DNA of 64,000 bases, from positions 4,623-68,622 of the forward strand of contig NZ_WHPN01000404.1 of NCBI RefSeq assembly GCF_009735685.1. The letters run 5' to 3'. The notes beneath the pieces were generated by a model. It saw nothing but the letters and a program-made list of their open reading frames with translations. It was not told where the DNA came from and did no database searches. Shown piece by piece: positions 3,454 to 42,638 of this stretch; positions within the stretch are counted from its first letter, which is position 1; every line of letters begins with the position of its first letter. This stretch comes from Streptomyces lycii. Lineage in GTDB: Bacteria; Actinomycetota; Actinomycetes; Streptomycetales; Streptomycetaceae. The position numbers and the translations under genes are program-made.

Positions 3454-3484
3454 CAACCTTAGGTAGGCCGACAGCGGACCGGCG

Positions 3485-5124: not shown

Positions 5125-5141
5125 TCGCCCAGACTATCCAT

Positions 5142-5164: not shown

Positions 5165-5218
5165 GGAGGAAGATGTCTCTCGTAGGGCTGCGACCTATCG
5201 AGAAGGAGCCGGTTCAAG

Positions 5219-25196: not shown

Positions 25197-25295
25197 ATGA
25201 CGTCCAGAAGAGCGCCGCGCGCCCCGTCCTCCGCCCGCTCCCACCGTCTGGAACCACCATGTCCGGCAAGCACCAGTCCTCCACGCCCACCGTGA
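25197..25295 (+). CDS. Putative proline/arginine-rich leader peptide
   Basis: A 32-residue frame (starts MTSRRAPRAPSSARSH) with a good ribosome binding site, AGGAAGG, seven bases before its ATG. Its end overlaps the start of the SCO6880-like gene, which lacks a strong site of its own. The distance between the two starts is 62 bases, the same as for the frame at 33214 ahead of the coupling-protein gene, whose peptide shares an EPPC segment. It may couple translation. Possibly just a shadow. Confidence 0.35.
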   Translation: MTSRRAPRAPSSARSHRLEPPCPASTSPPRPP

Positions 25296-27229: not shown

Positions 27230-28735
27230 ATGCCTCGTACCCGCGCCAGCGCCTCCCCTCTGTTCGTGCCCCGTAAGACGACACGCGCCGAGCAGCGGGC
27301 CGCCCGAGCCGGTTTCACCGAAGCCCGCCGCCAGGCACGCCTCGCCGGAAACCCGCCCAAGCACCGCGCCGAGCAGACCCTCGACCCAGATCTGCGGCCC
27401 ACCTACCCGCTCGCCGGTCGCCCCGGTCCGGCCTCCGCCCGCGGCGGCAAGCTCGCCCTGCCCGCCCACCGGATGACCACCGCCACAGCCAGCGGCGCGT
27501 ACCCGTTCGTGGCCGAGGGCGGCCTGGGCGCCGAAGGGGTGTTCATCGGCCGCGATGTGCACGCGGAGGCGGCTTTCTGCTTCGACCCGTTCTCGCTCTA
27601 CAACAGCGGCAGGGTGGAGGGCTTCACCAACCCCAACGCGGTCCTGGCCGGGATCATCGGCATGGGCAAGTCGGCGCTGGCGAAGTCGATCGCCACCCGG
27701 TCGATCGCCCACGGCTACCGGATCTACATCCCCTGCGATCCCAAGGGGGAGTGGACCGGTGTCTCGCAGGCCCTCGGCGGATACAGCATCGCCCTGGGCC
27801 CGGGGCTCCCTGGACGGTTGAATCCGCTGGACGCCCCGGCTCGCCCCGCCTCCGTGAGCGAGGAGGACTGGTTCACGGAGGTTCGCAAGCGCCGTCTGCT
27901 GCTGCTGGCCAGCCTCGCCCGCACCGTGCTGAAGCGCGACCTGCTACCGATGGAGCACACCGCCCTCGACCTGGCCCTGGATCTGGTCGTCGCTGACGCC
28001 GCCGCCCGGGGCACGGTGCCGCTGCTCGGCGAGATCGCCCACGTACTCGGCTCCCCCGAACGCCTCGACCAGGCCCTCGGCCACCAGGCGGGGCACCTCG
28101 GTTCAGCCGCCCAGGACCTCGCCCATGCCTTGCGACGTCTCGTGCACGGCGACTTGAGCGGCATGTTCGACGCGCCGAGCACCGTGTCGTTCGACCCAAC
28201 CACACCGATGCTGTCCATCGATCTCTCCCGTCTCGGCGGCTCCGGTGACGACACGGCACTGGTACTCGCGATGACGTGCGCGAGCGCGTGGATGGAGTCA
28301 GCCCTCAGTGATCCCGATGGCGGTCGGCGCTGGGTGATCTACGACGAGGCGTGGCGGCTGATGCGGCACGTCGGGCTGCTGGAGCGGATGCAAAGCCAGT
28401 GGAAGCTCTCCCGAGGGCTGGGCATCGCGAACCTGATGGTGATCCACCGCCTCAGCGATTTGCTCTCGGCGGGCGACGCCGGGTCGCGCGGCCGGGTCCT
28501 TGCCGAGGGGCTCCTCGCGGACTGCAGCACGCGCATCATCTACCGCCAGGAGCCCGACCAGCTCGCCGCCGCTGCATCTCTGCTCGGCCTGACCGGCGTC
28601 GAGACCCAGGCGGTGTCCGCTCTGACCAAGGGCCGAGGTCTGTGGAAGGTCGCCGGCCGCTCGTTCATCACCCAGCACATCCTCCACCCGGCTGAGCGGG
28701 AGCTGTTTGACACAGACGCCCGCATGGCGGCCTAG
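27230..28735 (+). CDS. VirB4/TraC-like conjugation ATPase
   Basis: A 501-residue P-loop ATPase energising the secretion channel. Walker A is GIIGMGKSALAKS (about 140-152) and Walker B RWVIYDEAWRLM (about 366-377). Downstream come the helicase-like strands around MVIHRLSDL and the arginine-containing CSTRIIYRQ, as in VirB4 proteins. It is shorter than proteobacterial VirB4 because the N-terminal region is supplied separately, probably by the SCO6880-like protein. ATG start with GGAGA upstream. Confidence 0.85.
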   Translation: MPRTRASASPLFVPRKTTRAEQRAARAGFTEARRQARLAGNPPKHRAEQTLDPDLRPTYPLAGRPGPASARGGKLALPAHRMTTATASGAYPFVAEGGLGAEGVFIGRDVHAEAAFCFDPFSLYNSGRVEGFTNPNAVLAGIIGMGKSALAKSIATRSIAHGYRIYIPCDPKGEWTGVSQALGGYSIALGPGLPGRLNPLDAPARPASVSEEDWFTEVRKRRLLLLASLARTVLKRDLLPMEHTALDLALDLVVADAAARGTVPLLGEIAHVLGSPERLDQALGHQAGHLGSAAQDLAHALRRLVHGDLSGMFDAPSTVSFDPTTPMLSIDLSRLGGSGDDTALVLAMTCASAWMESALSDPDGGRRWVIYDEAWRLMRHVGLLERMQSQWKLSRGLGIANLMVIHRLSDLLSAGDAGSRGRVLAEGLLADCSTRIIYRQEPDQLAAAASLLGLTGVETQAVSALTKGRGLWKVAGRSFITQHILHPAERELFDTDARMAA

Positions 28736-28767: not shown

Positions 28768-29463
28768 ATGTCTGCTTCTTCCACTCCTTCCTCCGGTGAC
28801 AACCAGCCGTCGCAGGCCACCGACCCTTTGGCGTGGCGACGGCACCTCCCGGCATTGGCCTCGGCCGCCGCCGGGATCAACGAGGCGTGCGACGCCTGGG
28901 ACGCGGTTTCGGACTCGCTCTGCGACGCGGACGGCTGGCCGCTGGACGACAAGGTCTACGGGGACGGGAAGGTCAAGCGGGACGCCGAAGCGTGGAAGCA
29001 CGCCGAGGTGTTCCTCGACCACGGACCCGAGGTGCTGGCCGGGGTCCGCGCCGCCGCCGACGGCCCCGACTACGTCGAGGGGCCGATCAGTGACGACCTC
29101 CGTCGGATACGCGGGATCGACACCATCCTGTTCCGGGCGGAGGAGCTGCGGCACGAATGGTACGGCGTCATGGCGCTTATGGACGGTTCGCAGCCGAGCG
29201 TGCTTCACCTCTACAAGGAGCGTGCCGAGGAGCACCGCAACACCGAGGGCTGGCACTACTCACATGAACTCGGTTCCAAGGGACCGGCGTTGGTGCGTGT
29301 CGGTGAATACCTAGCTCACCGAGCGGACACCGAACGGCCGGCGCAGACCGAGCGGGCTCGCGTCGCCCGGACCCGCTCGACGCACAACACCCCTGGGGTA
29401 TCACCTGCTTTGCCCCAGGTCCCGCCGGCATCGCATCCACCGGCTCCCGGTCGCTCGCGGTGA
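28768..29463 (+). CDS. Unknown helical protein with element-type C-terminal tail
   Basis: A 231-residue protein of no recognised family. The body (about 20-195) is charged and helical with several Trp residues. The C-terminus carries the tail shared with many neighbours: RARVARTRST, then 26 Ala/Pro/Ser-rich residues ending GRSR. ATG start after GGGAA. Its place directly behind the VirB4-like gene ties it to the transfer operon. The tail may be a secretion signal (see findings); the body's function is unknown. Confidence 0.65.
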   Translation: MSASSTPSSGDNQPSQATDPLAWRRHLPALASAAAGINEACDAWDAVSDSLCDADGWPLDDKVYGDGKVKRDAEAWKHAEVFLDHGPEVLAGVRAAADGPDYVEGPISDDLRRIRGIDTILFRAEELRHEWYGVMALMDGSQPSVLHLYKERAEEHRNTEGWHYSHELGSKGPALVRVGEYLAHRADTERPAQTERARVARTRSTHNTPGVSPALPQVPPASHPPAPGRSR

Positions 29464-29480
29464 TCCCTAGCACGCAGTCA

Positions 29481-29514
29481 CGGCAGCGCCAAACTGCCCG
29501 ATCACCGGATCCTC
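29481..29514 (+). promoter_or_regulatory. 34-bp motif, copy 1 of 3
   Basis: This is CGGCAGCGCCAAAC followed by CCGGATCCTC in phase with the copies at 31609-31642 and 37763-37796. All three align over 34 bases without gaps and lie 40-80 bases ahead of genes with otherwise weak upstream signals. Conserved positions are CGGC-G--CCAAAC, a C, CCGGA and CTC. Candidate promoter or operator. Confidence 0.45.
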
Positions 29515-29593
29515 ATGGACCACCGCACTCCTTCAAGCTCCACGCCCCCGTCGGCTCCCGCCGTGCGGCGGGGCGTTCGCAACGGAGAACTCC

Positions 29594-30157
29594 ATGCACC
29601 ACAAAACCTCGCCCCCGACCGCCAGGTCCGATCCGCGTCGCCTTCAGGCTGCCCTCTGTTCCGCGCTCGGGCAGCGCGGCCTGGAGGGCACCGTCGAGTA
29701 CGGCCTGAGCGACTACATCGTCCACGCCGAGCTTCCCGACGGCAGTTCGCTGATCATCTCGCCGCCGCAGGAGCCGCCCTCCGAGCACCCCGAGTCCCCG
29801 GAAAGCTGGATGGTCACCCGCCACCGGTCCGTCGAGCCTGCCGTCTACGAGGTGATCTACGACTCCGAGCCGGACGGTCCGCATGCGCGCCACGGCGGCA
29901 GCGTGCCGGATCTCCTCTCCGCTGTCGACGCCCGCCTGGACCAGCTTGGCGTACCACCACGCCAGGAGCAGGAACGTTCCGGCAAGGCGCGCGCCGCCAC
30001 CGTGCTCCCGCCCGACTCCGCTCCATCCCGGGCGAGTGTCGCTCTCGCCTCTTCGCCGTCGGTCGGCCAGCGCGTGCTCCCGACCGGTCCGCCGCCGGAG
30101 TCTTCCGCGCGGGCCGCGCCGCCGTCGGCCAGGTCCTCATCCGCCCCCCGGCTCTAA
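29594..30157 (+). CDS. Unknown protein with disordered C-terminal tail
   Basis: A 187-residue protein. Residues 14-110 appear folded (mixed alpha/beta, ISPPQEPPS loop, WMVTRHRSVEPAVYEVIYD strand pair). From about 115 onwards it is disordered, Ala/Pro/Ser-rich, and ends SSAPRL. The tail resembles but is longer than that of its neighbours (KARAAT box). ATG start following GGAG. No family recognised. Confidence 0.6.
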   Translation: MHHKTSPPTARSDPRRLQAALCSALGQRGLEGTVEYGLSDYIVHAELPDGSSLIISPPQEPPSEHPESPESWMVTRHRSVEPAVYEVIYDSEPDGPHARHGGSVPDLLSAVDARLDQLGVPPRQEQERSGKARAATVLPPDSAPSRASVALASSPSVGQRVLPTGPPPESSARAAPPSARSSSAPRL

Positions 30158-30254
30158 CCGACCGCGATCCAGGAGTCCTCCGTGCACGGCACCCTCAGAA
30201 CTGATCCGCCCGTCGCCCGCACCTGTAACCGCACCCGCCTCGGATGGATCTGCC

Positions 30255-31016
30255 ATGCCCAGCCACTACGACGTGCTGCCCGACCTGGCCTTCGGCCACC
30301 ACCCCGTCCACGGCATCGTCGCCGCGAACCCGAAGAACCTCGCGGCCAGCACCTGGATGCTCAAGGGATTCGACTTCCATCCCGTCCCCGACCAGCCGAC
30401 GTTGTACGCGCTGGCCGACCAGAACCGTGACGGCCACGGCCGTACGAGCCGGGCCATCGAGCTGCTGCGCAAGGCCGGCTACCAGGTCGATGTGGACGTC
30501 GCACTTGACCCTGCGCTGGCGCCCGACACGGCACAGGTACGCGACCGCGGTCCGCTCGGTGAACCAGACGTCGCCTTCGCCGATCACCCGCAGCTCGGCA
30601 TCGTCGCAGCCCTCGACGACCGTGTCTCCGGCCTCAGCGGGCTCGCGCTGGTGGAGGACGGCTGGCGGCACAACTCGAGCCTGGACATCTACACGCTCCC
30701 CGCGACCACCGATCGCGTCGAGGCGCTGGGGAAAGTCGCCGACGCCACGGTGGCCCTGCACCGTTCGGGGCTCCAGGTCGCAGTGCAGCCCCGCCTCGCT
30801 CAAGAGGTGACGGCTCGGCCCCGCCCTGCTGCCACGCCGGCCGTCGGCCGTGAGCGCGGCCGTGGTCCCGCTCGCGCGTCTCCGTTGAGCGCCGCCGCGC
30901 TCGCCGCCAGCCCGGCCCGTGCCGGTATCCCGGGCAGGGCGCCGGTCCCCGCCGCCGTCACCACACCGGCGGTCCGGCCGGTTGACCCCCGCATCGCGTA
31001 CTCCCGCGACCGCTGA
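30255..31016 (+). CDS. Two-repeat unknown protein with Arg-rich C-terminus
   Basis: A 253-residue protein made of two tandem ~85-residue modules (about 8-92 and 100-180). Each has the pattern HGIVAA...GF...YALAD...LRKAGYQVDV...LD. The protein encoded at 31698 carries a third version of the module. The C-terminal ~75 residues are disordered, rich in Ala/Pro/Arg, ending YSRDR. ATG start with GGATGG upstream. A reading frame from a GTG at 30182, with a strong CAGGAG, overlaps the start and may couple translation. Function unknown. Confidence 0.6.
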   Translation: MPSHYDVLPDLAFGHHPVHGIVAANPKNLAASTWMLKGFDFHPVPDQPTLYALADQNRDGHGRTSRAIELLRKAGYQVDVDVALDPALAPDTAQVRDRGPLGEPDVAFADHPQLGIVAALDDRVSGLSGLALVEDGWRHNSSLDIYTLPATTDRVEALGKVADATVALHRSGLQVAVQPRLAQEVTARPRPAATPAVGRERGRGPARASPLSAAALAASPARAGIPGRAPVPAAVTTPAVRPVDPRIAYSRDR

Positions 31017-31041
31017 TCCAACTCCTCAAGGAGGCCCTTCC

Positions 31042-31539
31042 ATGGCCGTGAAGACGATCTGGCCTATCGACCACACCTGCGGTCACCATGCCGACCGCGA
31101 CTTGTCCGACCGACCGGCCGACCGCCGCGCCGGCTTCGCCGAGTGGCTCGCCAGGCAGGAGTGCACGGACTGCTGGCGCGCCTCGAACGAGGGCGCCGAG
31201 CAAGACAAGGCCGCCTGGCTCAAGGCGAAGCGCGCCGAGGAGCAGACGGCGTCCGAAGCCTGGTCCGAGCAGTACCGGATGCCTCCCCTGGAGGGGACGG
31301 AGCGGGCCGTTCCCTGGGGCGTGCGCTGTCGTCACCAGATCCTGACCAACGCCTACACCGCACTGGTCACCGAAGGCACGACCAGCGAAGCGGAGTGGGC
31401 GGAGATCGAGGAGAACGCTCGTACGGTGACCCGTGCCGGGTGGTGGATAGACCAGAGGTCGTCCGAGCCCGAAGACCTCACCGAACTGCTCCGAGCCGCC
31501 ACCGAGGCCGACCGGCCGACAGAGAATCCCTTCTTCTGA
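31042..31539 (+). CDS. Small putative zinc-binding protein
   Basis: A 165-residue protein with an N-terminal metal-site candidate: HTCGHH (about 11-16) and QECTDCW (about 41-47), i.e. CxHH...CxxC. The rest is helical and acidic, ending in NPFF, without the Arg-rich tail of its neighbours. Excellent ribosome binding site, AAGGAGG, seven bases before the ATG. The family is not recognised. It is followed by a terminator-like hairpin, so it may close a transcription unit. Confidence 0.65.
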   Translation: MAVKTIWPIDHTCGHHADRDLSDRPADRRAGFAEWLARQECTDCWRASNEGAEQDKAAWLKAKRAEEQTASEAWSEQYRMPPLEGTERAVPWGVRCRHQILTNAYTALVTEGTTSEAEWAEIEENARTVTRAGWWIDQRSSEPEDLTELLRAATEADRPTENPFF

Positions 31540-31543
31540 CCGA

Positions 31544-31573
31544 CCGGGTGCCCTGCTGCGGCGGGGCACCCGG
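31544..31573 (+). terminator. GC-rich hairpin terminator
   Basis: CCGGGTGCCC and GGGCACCCGG form a perfect 10-bp stem with a 10-base loop, starting four bases after the stop of the zinc-binding protein gene. It is followed by intergenic DNA with the second copy of the 34-bp motif, consistent with termination and a new transcription start. Confidence 0.7.
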
Positions 31574-31608
31574 CTGACCGCCACCGTGCGGCCTCTACCA
31601 GCGATTCT

Positions 31609-31642
31609 CGGCCGGACCAAACCCCGGATTTGCCGGACGCTC
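31609..31642 (+). promoter_or_regulatory. 34-bp motif, copy 2 of 3
   Basis: CGGCCGGACCAAACC is followed by CCGGACGCTC. The first 15 bases are identical to the copy at 37763. It lies between a hairpin terminator and the next gene (start 31698), the expected place for a promoter or operator. Confidence 0.5.
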
Positions 31643-31697
31643 TGCCCACTGGCCCACCTCCAACGGGTCCTTCGCTCCCTCTGCCCCGGAGACTTCC

Positions 31698-32423
31698 GTG
31701 CCTACCTCGATCACCATCACGTCCGAGTTCAGCGGCAGCGTCGTTGCCAAGGGCGCTACTGATGACCTCTCCGCGCAGCTCCTCCGTCACGCCGGTTTCA
31801 AGCAGATCGACGACTGGCACGGCCGACGCCATCGCCTGCCCACCACCACTCCGCTCGCCGACCAGGTCGCCATCGCCAGCCATGCGGCCGAGATGCTTCG
31901 AGCCGCTCGCTATGACGTCACCCTTCCGCCGTCTCTGGACACGGCCCGGATGAGCCCTCCGGTGCATGTGCTGGGGCCCTACGCCGCCGGAGCCGAACTT
32001 CTCAGCATCACGGACCAGATCCGTGCGGCCGAAGACGGAGCCAGCCTTCAGCGGGCAGTTGACCACCTCCTTCACCCCGAGCACGGTGCGCTGGAGCGTG
32101 TCCGGGAGGCGCTGGAAGCAGCGGGAGAACAGGTCAACGACCTGGACGACGACGCGTATGCGCTCGCCGACCGGTTCGGCTTCGCCTCGGAGTTCGTCAG
32201 CTCGGCCCAGTCCGAACTCGTCGATTCCGAGGCCGAGCTACGCCGCGTCGGCGCCGCTTCGACGAGTTACTCGGCAGCACGGACCGTCCGTGATCACCGT
32301 GGTGCCGCTCTGGCCACTTCTCCTGCGGCGAACCAGGCCAAGGTCTCCTCGGCGTCCAGTTCCCAGACGGCGCCGCTCACTACGACGGGTCACCCGCCGC
32401 GCGCCGCAACGCCCCGACGGTGA
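31698..32423 (+). CDS. Unknown protein with LRxAxYxV module
   Basis: A 241-residue protein. The N-terminal ~75 residues match the repeat module of the protein encoded at 30255 (GSVVA, LLRHAGF, HRLP, EMLRAARYDV). The middle is a long helical segment (about 100-190) like a coiled coil. The end is disordered, rich in Ser/Ala/Thr, finishing AATPRR. GTG start with GGAGA seven bases upstream; downstream of the 34-bp motif. Function unknown; the module may bind a common partner. Confidence 0.6.
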   Translation: MPTSITITSEFSGSVVAKGATDDLSAQLLRHAGFKQIDDWHGRRHRLPTTTPLADQVAIASHAAEMLRAARYDVTLPPSLDTARMSPPVHVLGPYAAGAELLSITDQIRAAEDGASLQRAVDHLLHPEHGALERVREALEAAGEQVNDLDDDAYALADRFGFASEFVSSAQSELVDSEAELRRVGAASTSYSAARTVRDHRGAALATSPAANQAKVSSASSSQTAPLTTTGHPPRAATPRR

Positions 32424-32514
32424 CCCCGGCGGCTCTCTTCGCCGTCGGCCACCAGTACGTCGCGCGTCCCCGCTCGACCCACCTGTCAAAGACCACTCAC
32501 CCGAAGAGGCAAAC

Positions 32515-33180
32515 GTGCCCGAGTACTACTCCAGCATCGGCGAGGCCGTCGGTGCGGCCATGCAGCACAACATCCGGCTCGCCCACCGCAGCGCGGCACC
32601 GGGCTCCGACAAGCCGCTGCAGGTCAGGCACCTGCCCAGCGCTTCCGCCGATCCGTACTCGGTCCGTGGAATGATCTCTCGCCTCCACGAGGACGCCTCG
32701 CCCGATGAGGTGGCGGGCATCATCGAGGAGGTCAACGGCGCACTGGTCGGGGCTCTGCCCGAGCTGGCCGAACTCGTCGCCTCTGCCGCTGACTGGACTC
32801 GCGCCCGTCTCGACTTCGACGACCCGCATCACAATCCGACTTTCGAGACGTGGACACGACTGGCAGCCGCGTACGGGATGCTCCAGGACGTCCGTGAGCA
32901 GTTGGAAGTCGCCGAGGACAGTCTCGCTGCCTGTCCCGCAGAGCGCACGGACCCCCGGCACCACCAGATGGTCAACGTCTTGCGCAGCCGGGAGCTGCTC
33001 GACGATGTCCTCGGTGCCGAGGCTGCTCGTGTGCCGTCCGCTCCCCGGAACGTCGATTCAGACCGGCAGCGGGCGGCCCGCGCCTCCTCGCCGCGCGCCG
33101 GAACATCGCCGTCGACCGGCAGTCCGCCGGCCACCGCAGCACCTCCGCCCGCGCCTCGTTCTGCCGGCCGACCCCGCTGA
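32515..33180 (+). CDS. Unknown helical protein with element-type tail
   Basis: A 221-residue protein, largely alpha-helical (about 5-180), with no recognised domain. The C-terminus has RQRAARASSP, then about 30 residues rich in Ala/Pro/Ser ending SAGRPR, the arrangement seen in several neighbours. GTG start after GAAGAGG. A frame from the GTG at 32420, overlapping the preceding stop as GTGA, runs into this start and may couple the two genes. Confidence 0.6.
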   Translation: MPEYYSSIGEAVGAAMQHNIRLAHRSAAPGSDKPLQVRHLPSASADPYSVRGMISRLHEDASPDEVAGIIEEVNGALVGALPELAELVASAADWTRARLDFDDPHHNPTFETWTRLAAAYGMLQDVREQLEVAEDSLAACPAERTDPRHHQMVNVLRSRELLDDVLGAEAARVPSAPRNVDSDRQRAARASSPRAGTSPSTGSPPATAAPPPAPRSAGRPR

Positions 33181-33275
33181 AGCGTTCCGCCTCAGACGTC
33201 CAGGAGTACCCCCATGAGCTGCATGAGAGCCGAGCGCGCCCCGCCCCCGCCCGCTCACACACCCAAGGAACCGCC

Positions 33276-35064
33276 GTGCCTTCCCCGCGCACCAGCGCGC
33301 CCTCGACCACCACCGGGTCGGACGCGCTCCTCTACCTCCTGTTCGGCATCCTCGGCGCCGCCATGGCCTTCGGCTCCCTGGCCTGGCTGACCGGAAATCT
33401 CACCAATAACTTCGTCGGGAGCGGGACATGGGCCCCCTTCCGCGTCACGGACGCGCTGCTGCACCCGGAGGTGCTGTGGCCGACCTTGAGCACCAGCATG
33501 CTGATGGTCGGTGCCCGCGTCGTCCCCGGCTTGCTCACCGTTGCCCTGGTCGTCACCGCTGCGGTGATGTGGATGCGCTGGCGTGCCGGGTCCAAGTCCG
33601 GCCTCGCCCGCAAGGCGGACCTGGCGCCGCTGCTGGACAAGGAGATCGTCGCCAAGGCGAAGAGCCTCCGCCCGAGCCTGGGCGGCCGGGAGAGTAGAAG
33701 AGGTCCTGCCCGCTGACCGCGGCATCCTGCTTGGCACCCTCGATCCCGGTCGTGCGGAGGTCCGCGCGTCCTGGGAGGACGTGATCGTCGCGATCATGGC
33801 TCCGCGTTCCGGCAAGACGTCCGGGCTGGCGATCCCCGCGATCCTCTCGGCACCGGGTCCGGTCCTACTCACCAGTAACAAAGCCGCGAACGACGCCTTC
33901 ACCGCCACGGTGGACGCCCGCGCCGAGGTCGGCACGATCTGGACCCTCGATCCGCAGCAGATCGCCCACCACCCGCGCGAGATGTGGTGGGACATCCTCG
34001 CTGACGCCCGCGATCTCGCCGGGGCGAAGAGGCTGGCGGGGCACTTCGTGACGGCGAGCGTGGACGAGTCCAGCGGCTCCGACTTCTGGTCAACCGCCGC
34101 GAGCAACACCCTCGGCGCCCTCTTCCTCGCCGCCGCGTCCCACCGGCGGCCGATCACCGACGTCCTGGCCTGGCTCGCCATGCCGGCCGACCGCACCCCG
34201 GTGGACCTGCTCACCGACGCCGGCCACCACGCGGTCGCCGCCCAACTCCAGGGCACCGTCTCCGGCGCCACCGAAACGCGTGACGGCATCTATGAGACCG
34301 CGAGGCAGTACGCGAGCTGCCTACTCGACGCGGACGTCGCCGCCTGGGTCACCCCGAACGACGACCTCCCCGAGTTCCAGCCGTTCGCCTTCGCCACGTC
34401 CCGCGACACCCTGTACCTGCTGAGCAAGGACGGCGGCGGCAGTGCGTCCGCCATCATCGCGGCGGCGGCCGACGCCGTCATGCGCGCGGCCGTGATCGTC
34501 GCCGAGCGCTCCGGCGGGCGACTCGACCCGCCCGCTTTGTGCGTCCTCGACGAGGCGGCGAATGTCTGCCGCATCTCGGACCTCCCTGATCTCTACAGCC
34601 ACTTGGGAAGCCGAGGCGTCATCCCGATGACGATCCTGCAGTCCTACCGTCAGGGCCAGCGGTGCTGGGGCGAGGCCGGTATGGACGCCCTGTACTCCGC
34701 CGCCACCATCAAGATCATCGGATCTGGCATCGACGACGCCGACTTCGCCGACCGGCTCAGCCGACAGGTCGGCGACCACGACGTCCAGACCACCTCGGTG
34801 TCGACCAGCGAGGGCGGCAAGTCCACCTCGGTGAGCATGCGCACGGAGCGGATCCTTCCACCGGACGCCATCCGCGCCCTGCCCAAGGGCAAGGTGCTGC
34901 TGCTGGCCACCGGCATCCGGGTCGCCATGCTCAACCTCAAGCCCTGGTACAAGGAGCCCTCCGTCAAGGTGGTCGGCCCGGCTTCCGCTCGCGCCACGAA
35001 GGCCATCACCGAGCGCGCCCTCGCGAAGAGCATCGGCCAGGACGATCTTGGACTGTCGGCATGA
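33276..35064 (+). pseudogene. VirD4/TraG-like coupling protein, frameshifted
   Basis: This is the coupling protein that should bring the relaxase-DNA complex to the channel, but it is split by a +1 shift. Frame one (33276-33716) encodes two N-terminal membrane helices and runs to RPSLGGRE. Skipping one base at about 33693 joins it to VEEVLPADRGILLG in the next frame, which continues to 35064. That part has Walker A MAPRSGKTSG, Walker B CVLDEAANV and the coupling-protein end (ILQSYRQGQ). The second frame has no good start before its ATP site, so it is not an independent gene. Either a real mutation that would block conjugation, or a sequencing error. GTG start. Confidence 0.8.
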
Positions 35065-35291
35065 GCGCGCCCACACCACAGCAGGGGCGGTTGGCCCACG
35101 CCCCGGTCGTCCTACGCGGTGGCCGGTGGTGGCTTGACAGCGGGGCCGGCTCGGTCCCCGCCTCCGATCCCGCCTTCACCGCCGTCCTGGACGACTTCGC
35201 GCTGTCGATGGCCGCTGCCGACCAGGCAGTCGCCCACCTCCTCATCCGGCAGGACGAGGCGTCCTCCGTTGATCCCGGAGGCCGGCGGTGA
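35061..35291 (+). CDS. Small unknown protein
   Basis: A 76-residue protein between the coupling-protein gene and the DnaB_N-like gene, with ATGA and GTGA overlaps on both sides. It starts with a beta-hairpin-like VVLRGGRWWLDSG and continues with a helix (TAVLDDFALSMAAADQAVAH), ending GGRR. No family recognised. Tight coupling to neighbours supports that it is real. Confidence 0.6.
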   Translation: MSAPTPQQGRLAHAPVVLRGGRWWLDSGAGSVPASDPAFTAVLDDFALSMAAADQAVAHLLIRQDEASSVDPGGRR

Positions 35292-36460
35292 ACCCGCTGA
35301 TGAGTGCCGAGCAGGCGGTCCTCGGCGCCGCACTCCTCGACCCCGAGCAGCTCACGCACCTGGAGTGGCTCGCTGCGGACCACTTCTATCGGCCCGTCCA
35401 CCAGGCGCTGTTCGACGCCCTCCGCAAGCTGCGCAACGACGGGCACCCCGCGCTCTCGGCCGATGGTCCGTTGCCGCTGTCGTGGGTGACCGACGCGGTC
35501 GAGGAGGCCGGACAGCACGTGCGCGGGCTGACCGCGGCGTACGCCCACACCCTGATCCAGGCGTGTCCCCGAACCGAGCACGCCCCGGTGTACGGCCGCA
35601 TGGTGCTGGAGGGGGCGATTCACCGCACCGTCGCCCAGCACGCAATCCGTCTCCACCAGGCGGCTCGGGCCGACGCCGTCCAGGGCGAGGTCGAGGGAGC
35701 GTTGCGCACGGCAGACGTCCTGAGCGGCGTACTCACCGACCTTGCGCGACGCTGGGGAACCGATCCTCGACCGGTCCCACCCACCGCTGGGCCCTCTGCC
35801 GCCACGGACATCCCGCCTCCGGCACAGAGCGGCCAGGTCGCCGAGGACGAGCGGTTCCTCCTGGCCGTCCTCGCCGAACAGCCGGGGGCCATGGGCGAGG
35901 TGGTGGCCTGGCTGCGGCCGGGAGACTTCGCCGACCCGACCCACGGGCAGCTCTACCGGTGCCTGGGCGCGCTGCACCACCGGGGCGAACCCATCGATCG
36001 GATCACCCTGCTCTGGGAGGCCCAGCGACGCGGCCTGCTGGCCGACGGCACAGTGTCGAGCGAGCAGCTGACCGCCGTCTGCGAAGGCATGGTCCCCGGC
36101 AGCGCTGACTGGTTCGGACAGCGGGTGATGCGCTCCTCCGTCACCCGCACCGCCGCCGCCTCCGCGCGAGCCATCCGGACCCTGGCCCAGGACGAGGTCC
36201 TGGGGCCCGGCCGGCTGATCAACCACGCCCTGCACGAACTCGGTCCGCTCGACGAAGTACGTGCCCGCTGGGCCACCGCGAACAGCAGTCCGGCCCCGAA
36301 GACCACGGCATCCGCTCCGTCGGCGGCCGAGCCGCCACCCGACCGAGTGAAGGCCGCCCGCGCCCGCAGCACACCCCGCCCAGGCGCGTCACCCCCAGCC
36401 CCGGCCAGCCGTCTCCCCACGCTGTCAGCAGCCCGACCACCCTCGCGCGGCCACCCGTGA
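35288..36460 (+). CDS. Protein with two DnaB N-terminal domains, no helicase domain
   Basis: A 390-residue protein. Residues ~5-130 and ~185-310 each resemble the DnaB N-terminal helical domain (SAEQAVLGAALLDPE, DHFYRPVHQALFDALR; then ERFLLAVLAEQPG, DFADPTHGQLYRCLGALH). No RecA-like ATPase domain or Walker A is present. DnaB_N domains mediate helicase oligomerisation and primase or loader binding. This protein could recruit or block the host replicative helicase during element transfer. The C-terminus bears the shared tail (DRVKAARARST, then 28 residues). GTG start overlapping the preceding gene. Confidence 0.75.
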   Translation: MNPLMSAEQAVLGAALLDPEQLTHLEWLAADHFYRPVHQALFDALRKLRNDGHPALSADGPLPLSWVTDAVEEAGQHVRGLTAAYAHTLIQACPRTEHAPVYGRMVLEGAIHRTVAQHAIRLHQAARADAVQGEVEGALRTADVLSGVLTDLARRWGTDPRPVPPTAGPSAATDIPPPAQSGQVAEDERFLLAVLAEQPGAMGEVVAWLRPGDFADPTHGQLYRCLGALHHRGEPIDRITLLWEAQRRGLLADGTVSSEQLTAVCEGMVPGSADWFGQRVMRSSVTRTAAASARAIRTLAQDEVLGPGRLINHALHELGPLDEVRARWATANSSPAPKTTASAPSAAEPPPDRVKAARARSTPRPGASPPAPASRLPTLSAARPPSRGHP

Positions 36461-37741
36461 GGCCCCCTCCCCATCAGCCTCTTCTGCCCCTGGAACTCGC
36501 ATTGATCTACCCCACCTCCGCAGCCGCGCCGGACCTACGCGTCACGGCCTCAAGCCTCGCCACCCCGTTGATCGGGTCTCTCTGCTCGGGGTACGGCGGC
36601 CTCGACCTGGGTGTGCAGTCCGCGCTCGGCGGCACGCTCGCCTGGCACGCCGAGGTCGACCCGAACGCCTCACGCATCCTGGCCCGCCACTGGCCCGGCG
36701 TCCCGAACCTGGGCGATATCACCGCCGTCAACTGGTCCACCGTCCCCCGGGTGTGCGTCCTGACGGCCGGCTTCCCCTGTCAAAGACGTCTCGGTCGCCG
36801 GCCGCCGGGCCGGACTCAACGCCCAGACCCGCTCCGGGCTCTGGCTGCACGTCGCCCGTGCGGTCGCAGCCCTCCGACCCTGCCTGGTTGTGATCGAGAA
36901 TGTGCGCGGCCTCCTCACCTCCCCCGCCGGCTCCCCTGGCGACGTGGAACTCTGCCCGTGGTGTCTGGGAGACACCGCAGGTCAGCCTGCTTTGCGGGCA
37001 CTCGGTGCCGTACTCGGATCCCTGGCCGACCTCGGGTACGACGCGAAGTGGCTCGTGCTTCGCGCCTCCGACGTCGGGGCCCCGCACCGCCGCGAGCGGA
37101 CCTTCCTCGCCGCATGGCCCGCCGGGCACCCTGCTGAAGACGCCGACCAGCAACATCGGCAAGAACGGCGGCAGCCAGCATCCATCGAAGCGGAAGAGCG
37201 GGGGCCACGGTCCGAACCTGGCCGACGAGGTCGAGTGGCTGCTGCTGCCGACCCCGAAGGCGTCGGACGGAATCAAGGGCTCGCCGAACCAGCGGCACGG
37301 GAATGGCGACATGACCCTGCCCAGCGCGGCTGCGTCGTTGTTGCCGACGCCGAGGGCCAGCGACACGGGCACCCCGGGCCGCCGCCCCGGGAAGGGATGG
37401 CGGCCTCCCTTGTCGGCGGTGGTCCTGCCCCTCTGGGCGGAGGAGACGCCGGAGGCGGGGACGCGGACCGGCGATGGGGAGCGTACGGATCCGCCATCAC
37501 CCGATGGGAGAGCCTCACCCGCCCGGCCCCGGCTCCCACGGACGCGGCCGGTCGGCTCCGCGCGGACTTCGTGGAGTGGATGCAGGGCCTCGACGCCGGC
37601 TGGGTCACCGCGACTCCGGGGCTCGGCCGTCCGGCGCAGCTCACCGCGCTCGGCAACGGTGTCGTCCCACAACAGGCTTCGCACGCCTTGCAGTTGCTGG
37701 CACCACCCTTCCCCCGCTGTCCCCGCTGCGCCGACCGATAG
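36457..37741 (+). pseudogene. C5-cytosine DNA methyltransferase, three frameshifts
   Basis: Dcm-like protein whose reading frame changes three times. Frame one gives motif I (GSLCSGYGGLDLG) and reaches the catalytic loop AGFPCQ. An extra A at about 36784 moves it to the frame with DVSVAGRRAGLN and ENVRGL. An extra C at about 37127 moves it to LLKTPTSNIGKNGG and the variable region. A net loss of one base near 37476-37480 returns it to ITRWESLTRPAP and the motif IX-X end QLTALGNGVVPQQA. The joined product is typical of actinophage and element C5 methylases. All key motifs survive, so the lesions are recent or are sequencing errors. Confidence 0.8.
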
Positions 37742-37762
37742 CGCTCCACTACCGCGTTCTTC

Positions 37763-37796
37763 CGGCCGGACCAAACCGCTGATTCTCCGGATCCTC
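37763..37796 (+). promoter_or_regulatory. 34-bp motif, copy 3 of 3
   Basis: CGGCCGGACCAAACC followed by CCGGATCCTC combines the left half of the copy at 31609 with the right half of the copy at 29481. It sits in the 93-bp gap between the methyltransferase pseudogene and the DUF4913 gene. A short frame starts at the ATG (37803) just behind it. Confidence 0.5.
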
Positions 37797-37834
37797 TCGG
37801 GCATGTCGCCGTCTCACAGATGGAGCACACCCCC

Positions 37835-38434
37835 ATGGCCGACACCAGCCCGACCTCCCCCGGCCCCGAGCCGTACCGCGTCCCCGACGCAGACCTCGAC
37901 GACCTCGCCAGCACCCTCGCCAAGACCATGGCCGAGGTCAGGCAGCACGGCGTCATCCTCGACCGCCTCGGCTCCGAGCCCGACCCCGGCGCCATCCAGC
38001 CGCCGGACGGCGCTCCGGAAGCCGAGGCGGCTGACGGGAAGAAGCCCGACGGCCCCGCCTCGGTGTTCATCCTCGCCCTGGGCGGCAAGGAGTACGCCGT
38101 CGAACTCGCTGCCCTCAGCGACTGGGTGAACTACCTCTTCCTACCGGTGTACGGCCGGGAGATCAGCACGAGCCGTCCCTGGTGCGCGCACTGGCACGAA
38201 CACCCCGAGGCCGTCGCCCGGCTCCACGCACTCTGGCTCGCCTGGCAGCAGTTCACCGACACGGAGGCCGGCCTGTCCGGCCCCTCGACCTGGCACCGCG
38301 ACCACCTGGACCAGACCCTGGCGCACCTGCGTGCGCCCGACGGACCGTTCGCGGCCTGCACGACCAGCGCAACTCGCCCCAATCACCGGGTGCTGGCCAC
38401 CCCGGCGCCCGAGCAGGCGGGGGTGGCGGCGTGA
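37835..38434 (+). CDS. DUF4913 protein
   Basis: A 199-residue protein. After a disordered N-terminal third, residues ~95-185 match the DUF4913 pattern typical of actinobacterial mobile elements: LSDWVNYLFLPVYGR, WCAHWHEHPEAVARLHALW, TWHRDHLDQTLAHLR. Function of DUF4913 is unknown. Start: I prefer the ATG at 37835, with GGAG upstream; an ATG 15 bases earlier is in frame. The stop overlaps the next GTG. No Arg-rich tail. Confidence 0.75.
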   Translation: MADTSPTSPGPEPYRVPDADLDDLASTLAKTMAEVRQHGVILDRLGSEPDPGAIQPPDGAPEAEAADGKKPDGPASVFILALGGKEYAVELAALSDWVNYLFLPVYGREISTSRPWCAHWHEHPEAVARLHALWLAWQQFTDTEAGLSGPSTWHRDHLDQTLAHLRAPDGPFAACTTSATRPNHRVLATPAPEQAGVAA

Positions 38435-39210
38435 ACGACATTCTCGACTTCGGCCTCGCCGATCTATCGCCGGCCAACGACGACTCCGAGGAAGCGATGG
38501 AGGCCCTCTGGACTGGCGACCTGACGGTGCTGTCCCAGCACCACACCACACCCAACGGTTCGCACAGCTTCGTCCTCGCCCACGACCGATCGGTCACCTG
38601 GGGGATACCCGGCGAGCCACAGCTCGTTGCGATCGCGGTCGCTCGGGATCTACGGCAGTCCACGTTCACGTTCGAGACGAGTCACCACGCCACGGCGTCC
38701 TTCGCACAGAACTGGCTGGCAGAACGCGGCTGCCCGCTCGAACGGATCGCACTGCACGGTGGCGACTACATCAAGCCCGCCGACGACCTCACCCTCCAGG
38801 TGGAACAGCAGATCCAGAAGTCGGGCACCCGCTACGAGGTCCTCGACACCTACACCTCTGACGACAACCCCAGCGAGGCGTGGACACTCGTCAACGACTC
38901 CCAGGCCACCCAGGCACCGGTTCGTCTCTTCTACGAGGAGTGGAACCACGGTGCCGGCACGTACACGATGCGCGAAGGCGCCTTCCCCGACGTCGGCGTC
39001 GCCCAGACCTGGCTGGACGAGCGCAGCGAACCGCTGCCCGAGCCTCCGGAGTACAGCGACCACAACGGTGCTGTCGTCCGGGCCCGCATCGCCCGCATCG
39101 CCCTTTCCCGGTCCGCCGGAACCTCTCCGACACCGCAGACCGGGCTCGACGCGCCCCGCGCGTCAGCGGCGGTACCGGTCCAGCGCGCGGTCCAGGGGAG
39201 GCTGCTGTGA
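38431..39210 (+). CDS. Unknown protein with element-type tail
   Basis: A 259-residue protein. Two similar beta-rich segments (about 15-110 and 120-215) each end in a helix with a Trp-Leu (FAQNWLAERG, AQTWLDERS), suggesting an internal duplication. The C-terminal ~40 residues (RARIARIALSRS, then 31 residues ending QGRLL) resemble the shared tail. GTG start with GTGA overlap; linked by another GTGA to the ParE-like gene. Function unknown. Confidence 0.6.
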   Translation: MNDILDFGLADLSPANDDSEEAMEALWTGDLTVLSQHHTTPNGSHSFVLAHDRSVTWGIPGEPQLVAIAVARDLRQSTFTFETSHHATASFAQNWLAERGCPLERIALHGGDYIKPADDLTLQVEQQIQKSGTRYEVLDTYTSDDNPSEAWTLVNDSQATQAPVRLFYEEWNHGAGTYTMREGAFPDVGVAQTWLDERSEPLPEPPEYSDHNGAVVRARIARIALSRSAGTSPTPQTGLDAPRASAAVPVQRAVQGRLL

Positions 39211-39683
39211 GCCGCGCCCGCTTCGCCTTCGCCGCGCACCCTGACGCCATCGCCGACCTGCGGGAACTCCCCTCTGAGATGCGCGATTTGGCCTTGCTGG
39301 AGCTGCAGAACCTGGTCCACGGAAGCGACGACTGCTTGCCGTTGAAGGGCCGTCTCGCCGGCTTCCACAAGGTGTACGTCGACCCGGCGGTCTCTTACCG
39401 GCTGGTCATCCAGTTCCGCCAAGCGCCACCGACCTCGACCCACAAGCGCGAGATCTACCTCGTGGCGGCTGGCAGCCGGAAGAACTACGCGGTCTACCGC
39501 GCGGCCCACCTGCGGACCGAGCCTCAGCAAGGGCTCGGCCCGGACTCCGCCACGGAGGCCCGCGTGCAGGCCGCCCGGTCTCGCTCGACGCTCACCACCG
39601 AACGGCCGACAACGGGCCGCGCGGCTGCCCCGTCACCAGCGCCGCCCTCGGCCACTGCTTCTCGAAAGGCCACCCAGCGATGA
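39207..39683 (+). CDS. RelE/ParE-fold protein with element-type tail
   Basis: A 158-residue protein. Residues ~1-100 have the RelE/ParE toxin layout: helices (DAIADLRELPSEMRDLALL), LKGRLAGFHKVYVD, a strand with YRLVIQF, and a closing REIYLVAAGSRKNYAVYRAAH. The C-terminus adds the shared tail (ARVQAARSRST, then 30 residues ending KATQR), absent from ordinary RelE/ParE. No typical antitoxin gene is adjacent; the next gene is larger. It may be an mRNase or gyrase-type toxin, or a domesticated version with another job. GTG start overlapping its neighbour. Confidence 0.65.
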   Translation: MSRARFAFAAHPDAIADLRELPSEMRDLALLELQNLVHGSDDCLPLKGRLAGFHKVYVDPAVSYRLVIQFRQAPPTSTHKREIYLVAAGSRKNYAVYRAAHLRTEPQQGLGPDSATEARVQAARSRSTLTTERPTTGRAAAPSPAPPSATASRKATQR

Positions 39684-40345
39684 CCAACGACGGTACTGCG
39701 CTGACCCGTTCAGAGCTGGCGGATCTCCTCACCGAGGCCGCTCAGAACGTCGGCGGCATCCCTGCCGCCGAGTACCCGACGGCCGCCGCCCGCTCCTACC
39801 TGCATCCCGTCTTGGGTCCGCTGGCCGCTGGGCCCCGCGTGATCACCGAGCTGAACGACCGGTTCGAGGGCTTCGTGGCCACCGAGCCACGCCCCGCTGG
39901 TTCGGCGGGCCTGTTCGCTCTGGCCTCCTACGCCTCCGCGCTGGGGTGGCTCACCGAGTCGTTCGCCGAGCTGACCTCCTCGGTCGACGAGATCTGTACC
40001 CGCGTGGGCATCCCTACGGAGCCTTGCGCCCCGATCGCCGCCACGTCCGGCGGAACCGAGCGGGACGACGAGTTCGACTTCGCCTTCAGCACACTTGAGT
40101 TGGAGGCGGTCCGCAACGCAGCCGAGGCCGCCGGCCTCGCGCCGGACGCCTACGTCGAGGTTCTCTCCCAGTCGCTACTCGCCGCCGCCCGGATCACCGA
40201 CGCCTGCATGGAGATCTCCAGCGGCCTGCTCGATGACGCCGATCTCCTCAGCGAAGTGAGTGACCGCCCTCGGCTCGACAACGATCCCGGGAGCCTGCCC
40301 GCTCTGGTCCGCTCCCTGCTGGCCCGGATGGAGGCGACGGAGTGA
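39680..40345 (+). CDS. Unknown helical protein
   Basis: A 221-residue, acidic, mainly helical protein translated with the RelE/ParE-like gene (ATGA overlap) and the following gene (GTGA overlap). The C-terminal part (FSTLELEAVRNAAEAAGL onwards) looks like a compact helical DNA- or protein-binding segment, loosely recalling ribbon-helix-helix antitoxins. That similarity is too weak for an assignment. It lacks the Arg-rich tail. Confidence 0.6.
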   Translation: MTNDGTALTRSELADLLTEAAQNVGGIPAAEYPTAAARSYLHPVLGPLAAGPRVITELNDRFEGFVATEPRPAGSAGLFALASYASALGWLTESFAELTSSVDEICTRVGIPTEPCAPIAATSGGTERDDEFDFAFSTLELEAVRNAAEAAGLAPDAYVEVLSQSLLAAARITDACMEISSGLLDDADLLSEVSDRPRLDNDPGSLPALVRSLLARMEATE

Positions 40346-40608
40346 ACCCGTACGACGCAGACACACACCCTGGGCCTTATCTCGTCGTCGAAGTGCTCGG
40401 TGTCGGGGATGTCAGCGTGCACGCCCTCGCGCATGGTCCGGAGGAGCCGCTGCACCAGGCCGCTACACGCGTCATCGAAGCCGCAGCGGCGTTGGACGAG
40501 CGACACGACACAGGAACCGATGGCCGAAGCCGAGCGGGTCGAGGACGCGCTGCGCCGCTTGCATCTTCGGCACTCAACTGCCGTGATTCAGGCCCTCGAC
40601 TCGGCTGA
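40342..40608 (+). CDS. Small unknown protein, 3' end overlapping next gene
   Basis: An 88-residue frame starting GTG with a GTGA overlap. Its first ~55 residues (YLVVEVLGVGDVSVHALAHG) look like a real protein. The last ~30 lie over the start of the winged-helix gene and look like a shadow, so the gene may have lost its own stop. No family recognised. Confidence 0.45.
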   Translation: MNPYDADTHPGPYLVVEVLGVGDVSVHALAHGPEEPLHQAATRVIEAAAALDERHDTGTDGRSRAGRGRAAPLASSALNCRDSGPRLG

Positions 40609-41026
40609 CGGCCAGATGCGGTTCGTTCACATCGCCGAGGCGGCCGGTCTGGACTACGGCCTCGCACGGCAGCGACTTGTCCGGCTTCAGGCCGATGGCC
40701 TGGTCACGCGGACGGGCTCCCGGCACGGAGACCCTTACGTGCTCACCGATGCCAGCCAGGCGTTGGGGGCCGTCTACGCAAGTGTCGAGCACTGGAGCCA
40801 GCCCTTCGCGCTGCGAGGTGGAACAGCGGCACCGCGTCCGGCAGCGGCAGCCACGCGCACCCACGTCGGCATTCCGCTGGAGGCGGGAGCCGACAGCGCC
40901 CGGACCGCGGCGGCCCTACGACGGAGCGCCGCCGCGTCGAACGTCATGTTCAGCCACGCGCCTCAGCCGGAACCGCAGGTGCCGGCGGCCGTGACCGCTC
41001 AGTCGGCACCGGGCCGGGGCCGGTGA
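40520..41026 (+). CDS. Winged-helix protein with element-type tail
   Basis: A 168-residue protein. Residues ~5-90 form a MarR/ArsR-like winged helix: FVHIAEAAGLDYGLARQRLV is the helix-turn-helix and LVTRTGSRHGDPYVLTD the wing. The remaining ~75 residues are disordered and end SAPGRGR, with an ARTAAALRRS box 32 residues before the stop. It could regulate element genes or, if the tail is a secretion signal, act in the recipient. ATG start after AGGAACC, inside the end of the preceding frame. Confidence 0.6.
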   Translation: MAEAERVEDALRRLHLRHSTAVIQALDSADGQMRFVHIAEAAGLDYGLARQRLVRLQADGLVTRTGSRHGDPYVLTDASQALGAVYASVEHWSQPFALRGGTAAPRPAAAATRTHVGIPLEAGADSARTAAALRRSAAASNVMFSHAPQPEPQVPAAVTAQSAPGRGR

Positions 41027-41141
41027 CGGAGGTGAGAACTAGAGGCCACTCGCCGCCACTACGGCATCCGCGTGCGCTCCGGCGGCTCCCGCCGCTGCAT
41101 ACGCGGATCCGTTCTCCTCCTTCGCTTCCGGAGACTCGACC

Positions 41142-42092
41142 ATGTACGCCCCTGATGACCCGACCCGGTACCAAGAGGTACTGGTCAGCCCCATGTATCT
41201 GGCTGGTTCCAACGGGACCGGCGAGGCTGGCTTCGCGCCCGTCGCCCACTGGCCCCATCAGTACCTCGATGAGGGCCCCTGCCAGCTCCTCGTGACCTCT
41301 CCCGACCAACGGATTCGGATCGGCTGGTTCGGCGACGACTTCGAACTGTGGAAGATCAGCGCAGCCGAGGACGCCTTCTCGGCGCCTCGCTGGACGGCGA
41401 CGTTCAACCACGTCACCCCGGCCGAGATGGTCGCCGGCCTCACCGCCGCACTGGTCCAGGACTACGACGAAGCCATCGCCTCCGACACCCTCGGCCGCTT
41501 CTTGACAGGGCCAACCGTCCCCTGGAGGGACACCGTCGGGCCGCTGACCGATGCCGGCTGGAACCTTGACGGAGCTGCTGAACTCGGCACCGTCGAGATC
41601 ATCGCTCCTGACGACCAAGCGGGCATCCTTATCGATCGGCGCGGCTACGGCTCCGACCGCACGACCGTTGAGCTGTGGGCTGGCCCGCCGGGCTGGGGCA
41701 CTCGTGCCGAAGCGACGTTCACGGCCCGCACACCGTCCCATTTGATCGCCGCAACCGCCGCTGTGATGGCGGAGTCGACCCCGGTGGTCCGCGAGCGCCA
41801 CCAAGTCGACCGGCGGATGCAGCACTTGGTCACCATGACCCCTGTCGCGTCGTCCACGCCGATCGCCGAGGCTCAGGTCTCGCGCGCTCCGACTCCGCTG
41901 GACGTACGCCGCACCGCGGTCACCCAGGCCGTACACCGTGCCGCGCGGGCACCACGCACAGCAGCCGACCTCCGGGTGATGGCCGCGCAGAGCCGCTCCA
42001 CGGGGGCGGCGCAGAAACGGACGGGACACCCCGCGCCCGCGACCTCTGCCCGGCTGCCGGCCAGCTCGCCGACGCCCCGGCGCGGACGCTGA
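41142..42092 (+). CDS. DUF317 protein with element-type tail
   Basis: A 316-residue Streptomyces-type DUF317 protein with two copies of the domain. Each ends in the hallmark aromatic/TP segment: WTATFNHVTPAEMVAGLTAA (about 85-105) and ATFTARTPSHLIAATAAVM. DUF317 proteins are abundant on actinobacterial mobile elements and have no known function. The C-terminal tail is a clear example of the shared type (LRVMAAQSRST, then 29 residues ending PRRGR). ATG start after GGAGA; the 115 bp upstream hold no other gene. Confidence 0.75.
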   Translation: MYAPDDPTRYQEVLVSPMYLAGSNGTGEAGFAPVAHWPHQYLDEGPCQLLVTSPDQRIRIGWFGDDFELWKISAAEDAFSAPRWTATFNHVTPAEMVAGLTAALVQDYDEAIASDTLGRFLTGPTVPWRDTVGPLTDAGWNLDGAAELGTVEIIAPDDQAGILIDRRGYGSDRTTVELWAGPPGWGTRAEATFTARTPSHLIAATAAVMAESTPVVRERHQVDRRMQHLVTMTPVASSTPIAEAQVSRAPTPLDVRRTAVTQAVHRAARAPRTAADLRVMAAQSRSTGAAQKRTGHPAPATSARLPASSPTPRRGR

Positions 42093-42149
42093 CTCCCACC
42101 CCAGGCCGCACTCCACTCGCGACCGTCCCCGCCCAACAGGAGTTCCACC

Positions 42150-42638
42150 ATGCCCACCACCACCATGCTCGACCAGGCCACGGCCATGATCGAGAACGCC
42201 TGGGGGCAGCCCATCGAAGCTCTTGAGGTCCTAGGGGTCCGCCGCCCCAGCGAGGACCCGCTCCTGCGCTGCGCCATGCACACCCGCGCGGCCCTGGCCA
42301 TCACGGACAGCGCGGTAACCGTTCACCAGGACCGTCTTCACGCCCTGTCCCGGCATGGGTACGTGCCTGACTTCTACGAACTCGACCGGATCACCGAAAC
42401 GGCGGTCAAGCTCCGCGTCGCCCACGCGGAGAGCCGTGCGTACCTCCAGGCGATCCGGCGCGTGGTGGAGGCTCGGGAGGCCGCCGCACCCGAGGTTGAG
42501 GCACCGGCGGTTCGGCTGGCTCAGGCCGCTGTCGCCCGCTCCGGGCAGACGCGGCACGCCCCGGGGGCCGTGCCCGAACCGTCCTCTCCGGCGGCGGTCG
42601 TAGGGCCGTCAGCGCCCACAACGGGGCCCCGACGTTGA
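42150..42638 (+). CDS. Unknown helical protein with element-type tail
   Basis: A 162-residue protein, helical over residues 5-120, with HQDRLHALSRHGYVPDFYEL in the middle. The last ~40 residues are disordered: VRLAQAAVARSG, then about 31 residues ending TTGPRR, as in its neighbours. ATG start after AACAGGAG. Convergent with the small minus-strand gene that follows. Function unknown. Confidence 0.6.
   Translation: MPTTTMLDQATAMIENAWGQPIEALEVLGVRRPSEDPLLRCAMHTRAALAITDSAVTVHQDRLHALSRHGYVPDFYELDRITETAVKLRVAHAESRAYLQAIRRVVEAREAAAPEVEAPAVRLAQAAVARSGQTRHAPGAVPEPSSPAAVVGPSAPTTGPRR

Follow-up and report, generated by a model that had tools for sequence, protein, structure and literature searches.

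A position-locked C-terminal tail on unrelated proteins of a Streptomyces conjugative element, a probable recruitment signal for its VirD4-type secretion system

The C-terminal signals of the Agrobacterium VirB/D4 type IV secretion system (T4SS) were reportedly described by Vergunst in 2005, as cited in a later review. These positively charged signals are read by the coupling protein VirD4 (reviewed in PMC10025392). Among conjugative systems, the T4SS of the F plasmid pED208 co-transfers ParA, ParB, SSB, PsiA and PsiB, which helps establishment, F plasmids co-deliver proteins that calm the recipient SOS response, and the primase SogL is listed as a delivered protein (all in PMC8406263). Transfer in Streptomyces has been treated mainly via TraB (PMC12857230, PMC3218068, PMC9513070), and in the open-access literature we found neither a description of the substrates of streptomycete VirD4-type systems nor a substrate signal for them. 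Here we consider a 64,000-nucleotide stretch of the Streptomyces lycii genome (contig NZ_WHPN01000404.1, positions 4,623 to 68,622, forward strand; hereafter the window, in whose own coordinates all positions are given), part of a 7.65-Mb genome whose nearest relatives are Streptomyces. Within the window lies a conjugative element that encodes an NlpC/P60 hydrolase, a VirB6-like protein, an SCO6880 protein, a VirB4-like ATPase, a VirD4/TraG coupling protein and a MobA/VirD2-type relaxase, and about a dozen small proteins are encoded between and after these transfer genes. Many of the small proteins share a C-terminal tail, which we argue, from comparative sequence analysis, is probably a recruitment signal for the element's VirD4-type T4SS. 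The co-delivery of proteins in conjugation is an established concept, though not yet for the tag and the system described here, and no earlier description of the tail was found in the open-access literature, although one elsewhere is possible.

An initial annotation of the window had noted tight boxes near the ends of four of these proteins, looser versions in four more and arginine-ended disordered tails in a further three, on unrelated bodies, and translation of each protein bore out all of its coordinates and tail sequences. We find one box in all 11, R-x-x-[AVI]-A-[LRQV]-[AS]-[R/A]-S-[TPAG], which in the translated tails ends 26-33 residues before the stop and is followed by a disordered tail, in most cases ending in arginine. 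All 11 genes lie on the forward strand. The tight boxes are VARTRST in a protein of a family without a name (28768-29463; RARVARTRST at 29353-29382, 26 residues before the stop, ending GRSR), which is kept in homologues across the VirD4 loci introduced below; AARARST in a protein with two DnaB N-terminal domains (35288-36460; RVKAARARST at 36344-36373, 28 residues); AARSRST in a RelE-fold protein (39207-39683; RVQAARSRST at 39561-39590, 30 residues, on a predicted short helix); and AAQSRST in a DUF317 (SPDY) protein (41142-42092; RVMAAQSRST at 41973-42002, 29 residues, ending RRGR). The looser ones are AARASSP (32515-33180; RQRAARASSP at 33064-33093, 28 residues), IALSRSA (38431-39210; 39097-39117, 30 residues), AALRRSA in a winged-helix protein (40520-41026; RTAAALRRSA at 40901-40930, 31 residues) and AAVARSG (42150-42638; LAQAAVARSG at 42516-42545, 30 residues, ending GPRR). 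For the remaining three proteins the arginine-ended tails were as described, while a box had been overlooked: VALASSP (29594-30157; 30038-30058, 32 residues), AALAASP (30255-31016; 30894-30914, 33 residues) and AALATSP (31698-32423; 32304-32324, 32 residues). These variant boxes are retained in homologues, AALAASP in many relatives.

The bodies carrying these tails are likewise largely as first assigned. The double DnaB_N body matches PF00772 (1.9e-29) and DnaB structures, the DUF317 body matches PF03771 (2.9e-20), and the 12 best Protein Data Bank (PDB) matches to an AlphaFold model of the protein at 39207 are all RelE/YoeB/HigB toxins; the match for the winged helix is weak yet consistent. 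The protein at 38431 is predicted to consist of two beta4-alpha repeats, a helix bearing the box and a disordered tail, and a PDB fold search with its body gave no significant match.

In the last 60 residues of each window tail, seven strict boxes were found against 0.03 expected from 20,000 shuffles (P about 1e-16). The box pattern was defined after looking, so that this P-value is post hoc and independent loci carry more weight. These comprised 80 loci from named genomes (coupling-protein identity to the window 69-99%) and 10 plasmid loci, each centred on a VirD4 homologue, in which a box was called position-locked when a strict box lay 22-36 residues before the stop. Position-locked boxes occur in 213 of the 1,873 proteins of the VirD4 loci, as against none of 299 control proteins encoded in 394 kb of the genome to which the window belongs; within the bodies of the same VirD4-locus proteins the pattern turns up at only 0.0005 per tail-sized stretch. 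None of 55 proteins on six TraB-type plasmids is boxed, and the tails are therefore not common to TraB/FtsK-type Streptomyces conjugation on those plasmids. A 20-residue profile of the box, run against the whole genome in six frames, gave 37 weak matches, and the right distance between box and stop was found only in window proteins; matches thus did not fall at random on chromosomal proteins. As the initial annotation had anticipated, boxed proteins cluster on elements that have SCO6880/VirD4 genes and differ in their bodies. Structural T4SS proteins are never among them. A degenerate DNA pattern for the box was also tried and was of no use in a GC-rich genome.

When proteins were clustered into families on their bodies alone, with tails removed, at least 11 unrelated body families had three or more boxed members. 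Boxes are present in 40 of 46 RelE-like proteins, 39 of 73 DnaB_N proteins, 36 of 44 members of the 38431 family, 23 of 31 members of a family not represented in the window (L025:6571) and 21 of 30 winged-helix proteins, and the 42150 family (17 of 19 close members boxed), DUF317 and others are also among the boxed families. No box occurs in the coupling proteins (0/109), VirB4-like proteins (0/47), SCO6880 (0/42) or VirB6 (0/20), together 0/218, nor in DUF4913 proteins (0/58) or the protein encoded beside the RelE-like gene (0/31). This distribution, with the box on would-be cargo and absent from the machine families, argues that the tail is an add-on. The DUF317 proteins of two mobilizable elements end without any tail, and the RelE-like and DUF317 cargo had too few relatives on plasmids to be informative.

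Measured on 88 non-redundant tails, the core of the box is A-A-[LR]-[AS]-R-S-[TPA], and its end mostly lies 28-32 residues from the stop. Arginine occupies position -3 in 63 of the 88 and is found among the last four residues in 84; spacing, the arginine at -3 and the terminal arginine are all features outside the requirements of the search pattern. Within families, box columns are 79-96% identical; for the spacers the figure is 44-52% in four families out of six and 64-72% in the remaining pair. For two cargo proteins with no relation to each other (39207 and 38431), AlphaFold predicts a body with high confidence, then a short helix whose end is the box, and lastly a disordered terminus, with predicted local distance difference test (pLDDT) values mostly below 50 after the box. 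No Pfam match was found within the tails. Serines of the box are encoded by both TCN and AGY codons, which indicates that selection acts on the protein, and several codons are used at other box positions; consequently, we discarded the idea that the box is a DNA element.

If the box admits its bearer to a conjugative channel, elements that lack a channel of their own should carry it on their relaxase. We searched 61 genomes with the window relaxase and obtained matches in 23, and these relaxases form clade A, to which that of the window belongs, and a sister clade B. Boxes are carried by 17 of 26 clade-B relaxases (among them AARSRST, AARRRST, AARRQST, AARLRST and AAIARST), 25-33 residues before the stop and with a basic end; the other nine are degenerate, out of frame as extracted, or without a box. 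Inspected by eye, six neighbourhoods of boxed relaxases encode a mobilization protein, small DNA-binding proteins and replication-type functions alongside an integrase or other mobility genes; T4SS genes are missing from them, and in all six the relaxase is the sole boxed protein. In those genomes that were searched for VirD4, its nearest copy lay over 300 kb from the relaxase or on a different contig, or there was none. Of all the proteins of an element without a channel, the relaxase alone has to be recognised by the coupling protein of a helper. In our view the boxed relaxases are the strongest argument that the box has to do with recruiting proteins to a conjugative channel and is not something private to one element. 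The elements concerned (L192, L194, L196, L198, L200 and L203) are small, integrated and mobilizable, and such elements are common in Streptomyces genomes, with several per genome in some.

The box also follows the tree of VirD4 proteins: 47 of the 57 elements in one clade have two or more boxes, and 25 of the 26 in its sister clade (26 of the 95 coupling proteins in the tree) have none. The box is thus specific to one coupling-protein clade and not general to actinobacterial T4SSs. Outside these clades, two plasmids (L016 and L017) have AAAARST/AAAAQST-like boxes on two unrelated proteins adjoining the relaxase, and a homologous protein in locus L283 has a weak box. Most cargo of the sister-clade loci (L236, L239, L244 and others) ends in a Pro/Ala/Ser/Thr stretch and a basic end, and k-mer enrichment against shuffles revealed no convincing sharp motif of that clade's own. 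A likely explanation is that a basic, disordered end may be the general requirement and the AALARST box an affinity element added in the first clade. The box-less tails of the sister clade are possibly a simpler form of the same signal.

Several observations weigh against recruitment by VirD4 through the box. The elements of the sister clade are full of arginine-ended Pro/Ala/Ser/Thr tails without the strict box (25/26), and a basal member of that clade retains boxes on a RelE-like protein and others, so that the pairing with VirD4 is not strict. As VirD4 and cargo are inherited together, the match between box and tree is in itself no demonstration of binding. Furthermore, none of 20 clade-A relaxases is boxed, that of the window and some on mobilizable elements included, all having arginine-ended tails only, and the box is therefore not required by every relaxase. 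Finally, one Streptomyces plasmid of distant relationship has a box-like tail on a protein encoded beside its relaxase, and no clear box-like tails were seen on Rhodococcus, Saccharopolyspora or Micromonospora plasmids, a comparison that leaves out the Arthrobacter locus L286, which has no gene calls.

Alternative explanations differ in how well they withstand these data. The tail might be a docking tag that gathers proteins at the donor's mating apparatus, relaxosome or hyphal tip, through a coupling or host protein and without any crossing into the recipient. Unrelated bodies, linkage to the element and boxed relaxases would fit any shared partner at the site of transfer, and several of the bodies are DNA-related (DnaB_N, winged helix). 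However, it is not obvious what boxed proteins with a RelE fold, a winged helix or DUF317 would do at a donor pore, and mobilizable elements place the box on the relaxase, a class of protein known to be translocated, and not on their other proteins; we therefore consider docking unlikely. A second possibility is that the arginines of the tail bind DNA or RNA and that the protein rides into the recipient on the transferred strand, in keeping with a mean net charge of about +5 over the last 45 residues. Yet charge alone leaves unexplained why the A-x-x-R-S core is invariant, why it lies on a helix and why it keeps its distance from the terminus, which makes this explanation very improbable. A tag for regulated degradation or processing, read by a host protease or adaptor, has in its favour that protease signals typically take the form of a short C-terminal tag whose end is disordered, but the terminal AA of ssrA-type tags is found in none of 212 tails and there is no reason why such a tag should be restricted to conjugative cargo and mobilizable-element relaxases and never occur on other proteins of the genome, so that we give it almost no credence. 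Compositional drift, whereby the box would be a by-product of Ala/Pro/Ser/Thr/Arg-rich junk ends in GC-rich mobile-element genes, draws on the abundance of arginine-ended low-complexity tails in these loci (618 of 1,873 proteins, against 7 of 299 own-genome controls and 3 of 55 on TraB plasmids), but is refuted for the box, and hardly credible overall, given the excess over shuffles, the conservation of the box beside a drifting spacer, the nearly fixed spacing and the absence of boxes from control genes and TraB plasmids; the box-less tails are a separate matter. A compositional or Shine-Dalgarno artefact for the arginine-ended tails themselves was set aside, such tails being rare in both sets of controls.

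Recruitment to the VirD4-type T4SS thus remains our preferred reading. The initial annotation had gone further, proposing secretion signals by which these proteins are co-delivered with DNA to act in recipients; recruitment is well supported by the conservation, geometry and modularity of the signal, by its linkage to the element and by boxed relaxases on elements without a T4SS, while recognition by VirD4, delivery and action in the recipient are what we infer from it. The signal would have three parts: first a short helix with the box R-x-x-A-A-[LR]-[AS]-R-S-[TPA] at its end, then some 30 residues of Pro/Ala/Ser/Thr-rich spacer for which disorder is predicted, and finally a basic terminus in which arginine is found within the last four positions. 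The helix and box may be gripped by the coupling protein, or by an adaptor that the element encodes and that sits on that protein, after which the flexible basic end would be fed into the channel, and about a dozen unrelated proteins could in this way reach the recipient with or ahead of the DNA. On mobilizable elements without a channel, the boxed relaxase would gain entry to a helper's channel. We would give roughly even chances to the wider proposition that a Gram-positive element delivers a large set of effectors (for replication, toxin-like, regulatory and of the DUF317 type) by a short, dedicated export code, which varies from one clade of coupling proteins to another, and that mobilizable elements counterfeit this code on their relaxases.

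Delivered primases act on the entering strand in other conjugation systems. By analogy, the DnaB_N module, which comes without a helicase, could recruit the host primase DnaG to the entering strand, and so prime it and help it to settle. The RelE-fold protein, if delivered without its never-tailed neighbour, could be a toxin or ribonuclease in recipients, whereas the winged-helix and DUF317 proteins could set recipient gene expression. In the window, the tailed RelE-fold gene overlaps the next gene (39680; the pair spans 39207-40345), which is never tailed in any of 31 cases, and the two could represent a delivered toxin and a retained partner. The winged-helix protein (40520-41026) has an N-terminus about 110 residues shorter than that of most homologues (about 280 residues), and its start or frame may be damaged.

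The T4SS peptidoglycan hydrolase (NlpC/P60; 21465-22610, PF00877, 3.9e-21), the VirB6/TrbL-like membrane protein (23717-25126), the SCO6880 family protein (25259-26725) and the VirB4-like ATPase (27230-28735, assigned from position and homologue annotation) are on the forward strand, the last three without a box, as in the whole of their families. The relaxase (50372-52132, reverse strand) has a MobA/VirD2 fold (PF03432, 1.1e-8) and ends in NRRSPRR, as had been claimed, without a box. The VirD4/TraG-type coupling protein, the presumed receptor of the tail, is encoded at 33276-35064 on the forward strand (PF12696, 7.5e-34; PF02534, 1.4e-19), has no box, and occupies two overlapping open reading frames (33276-33716 and 33583-35064). 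A +1 frameshift at GGGAGnGTAAAAGAGGTC (about 33692-33709) divides the gene for this protein, and the extra base, together with a near-invariant GTAAAAGAGGT, is common to about 20 related loci with variable flanks; in other relatives the gene is in frame, and in L009 one A is lost. The site is a candidate for programmed frameshifting in this putative receptor, or else for slippage or re-initiation. A gene for a C5 cytosine methyltransferase at 36457-37835 also appears to be broken by frameshifts, and in the relative L013 it is an ordinary gene by annotation. Defence genes flank the transfer region (671-18181 and 44503-49236), including DISARM class 1 (DrmD, DrmMI, DrmA, DrmB), a Qat-like set (QatA, QatC and a TatD-type QatD) and an Argonaute-associated nuclease protein at 671-2026.

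Through a short, position-locked tag, dozens of hypothetical proteins become predicted delivered proteins, and a first context would be provided for DUF317, a family common in Streptomyces. The tag would also supply a molecular basis on which certain mobilizable elements could use certain helpers. If the proposal is true, streptomycete conjugation would be a many-protein delivery event, with a sequence rule that predicts substrates and pairs of helper and hitchhiker, and a small transplantable tag might be used to send chosen proteins between antibiotic-producing bacteria.

Like VirB/D4-type signals in general, the tail lies within about the last 50 residues, is net positive, disordered and contains arginine, and occurs on relaxases (17/26 in clade B, 0/20 in clade A). 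The nearest parallels are substrates of the Agrobacterium VirB/D4 system (VirF, VirE2, VirE3 and the C-terminus of RSF1010 MobA), in which the last 30-50 residues are arginine-rich and both unrelated substrates and a mobilizable relaxase are marked; what is conserved here, however, is an AALARS(T/P) box carried on a helix, some 30 residues short of the terminus, and the VirF-like arginine consensus, R-x7-R-x-R-x-R-x-x-R, is found in none of 212 tails. The same 212 tails include none with GLxRIDH, the motif characteristic of the XVIPCD, and none with the acidic EExxE-like block near the C-terminus known as the Dot/Icm E-block; 183 of the 212 have no more than one acidic residue among the last 30. 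The BID domain is a folded domain of about 100 residues, whereas the present tail is a short helix followed by disorder, about 45 residues in all in AlphaFold models. BID, found on Bartonella effectors and some conjugative relaxases, is similarly a transplantable C-terminal signal with a positive tail that serves effectors and relaxases alike (PMC10025392). The XVIPCD of the bacterial-killing T4SS of Xanthomonas is also a C-terminal module on unrelated bodies, read by VirD4 and used for delivery between bacteria (PMC10025392), but is a longer conserved domain. With pED208 the present element shares a conjugative T4SS that would send several element proteins besides the relaxase; the excerpted account of that plasmid describes internal signals in the relaxase and no tag shared by the co-transferred proteins (PMC8406263), in contrast to the one short tag borne here by about a dozen different bodies in Gram-positive actinobacteria.

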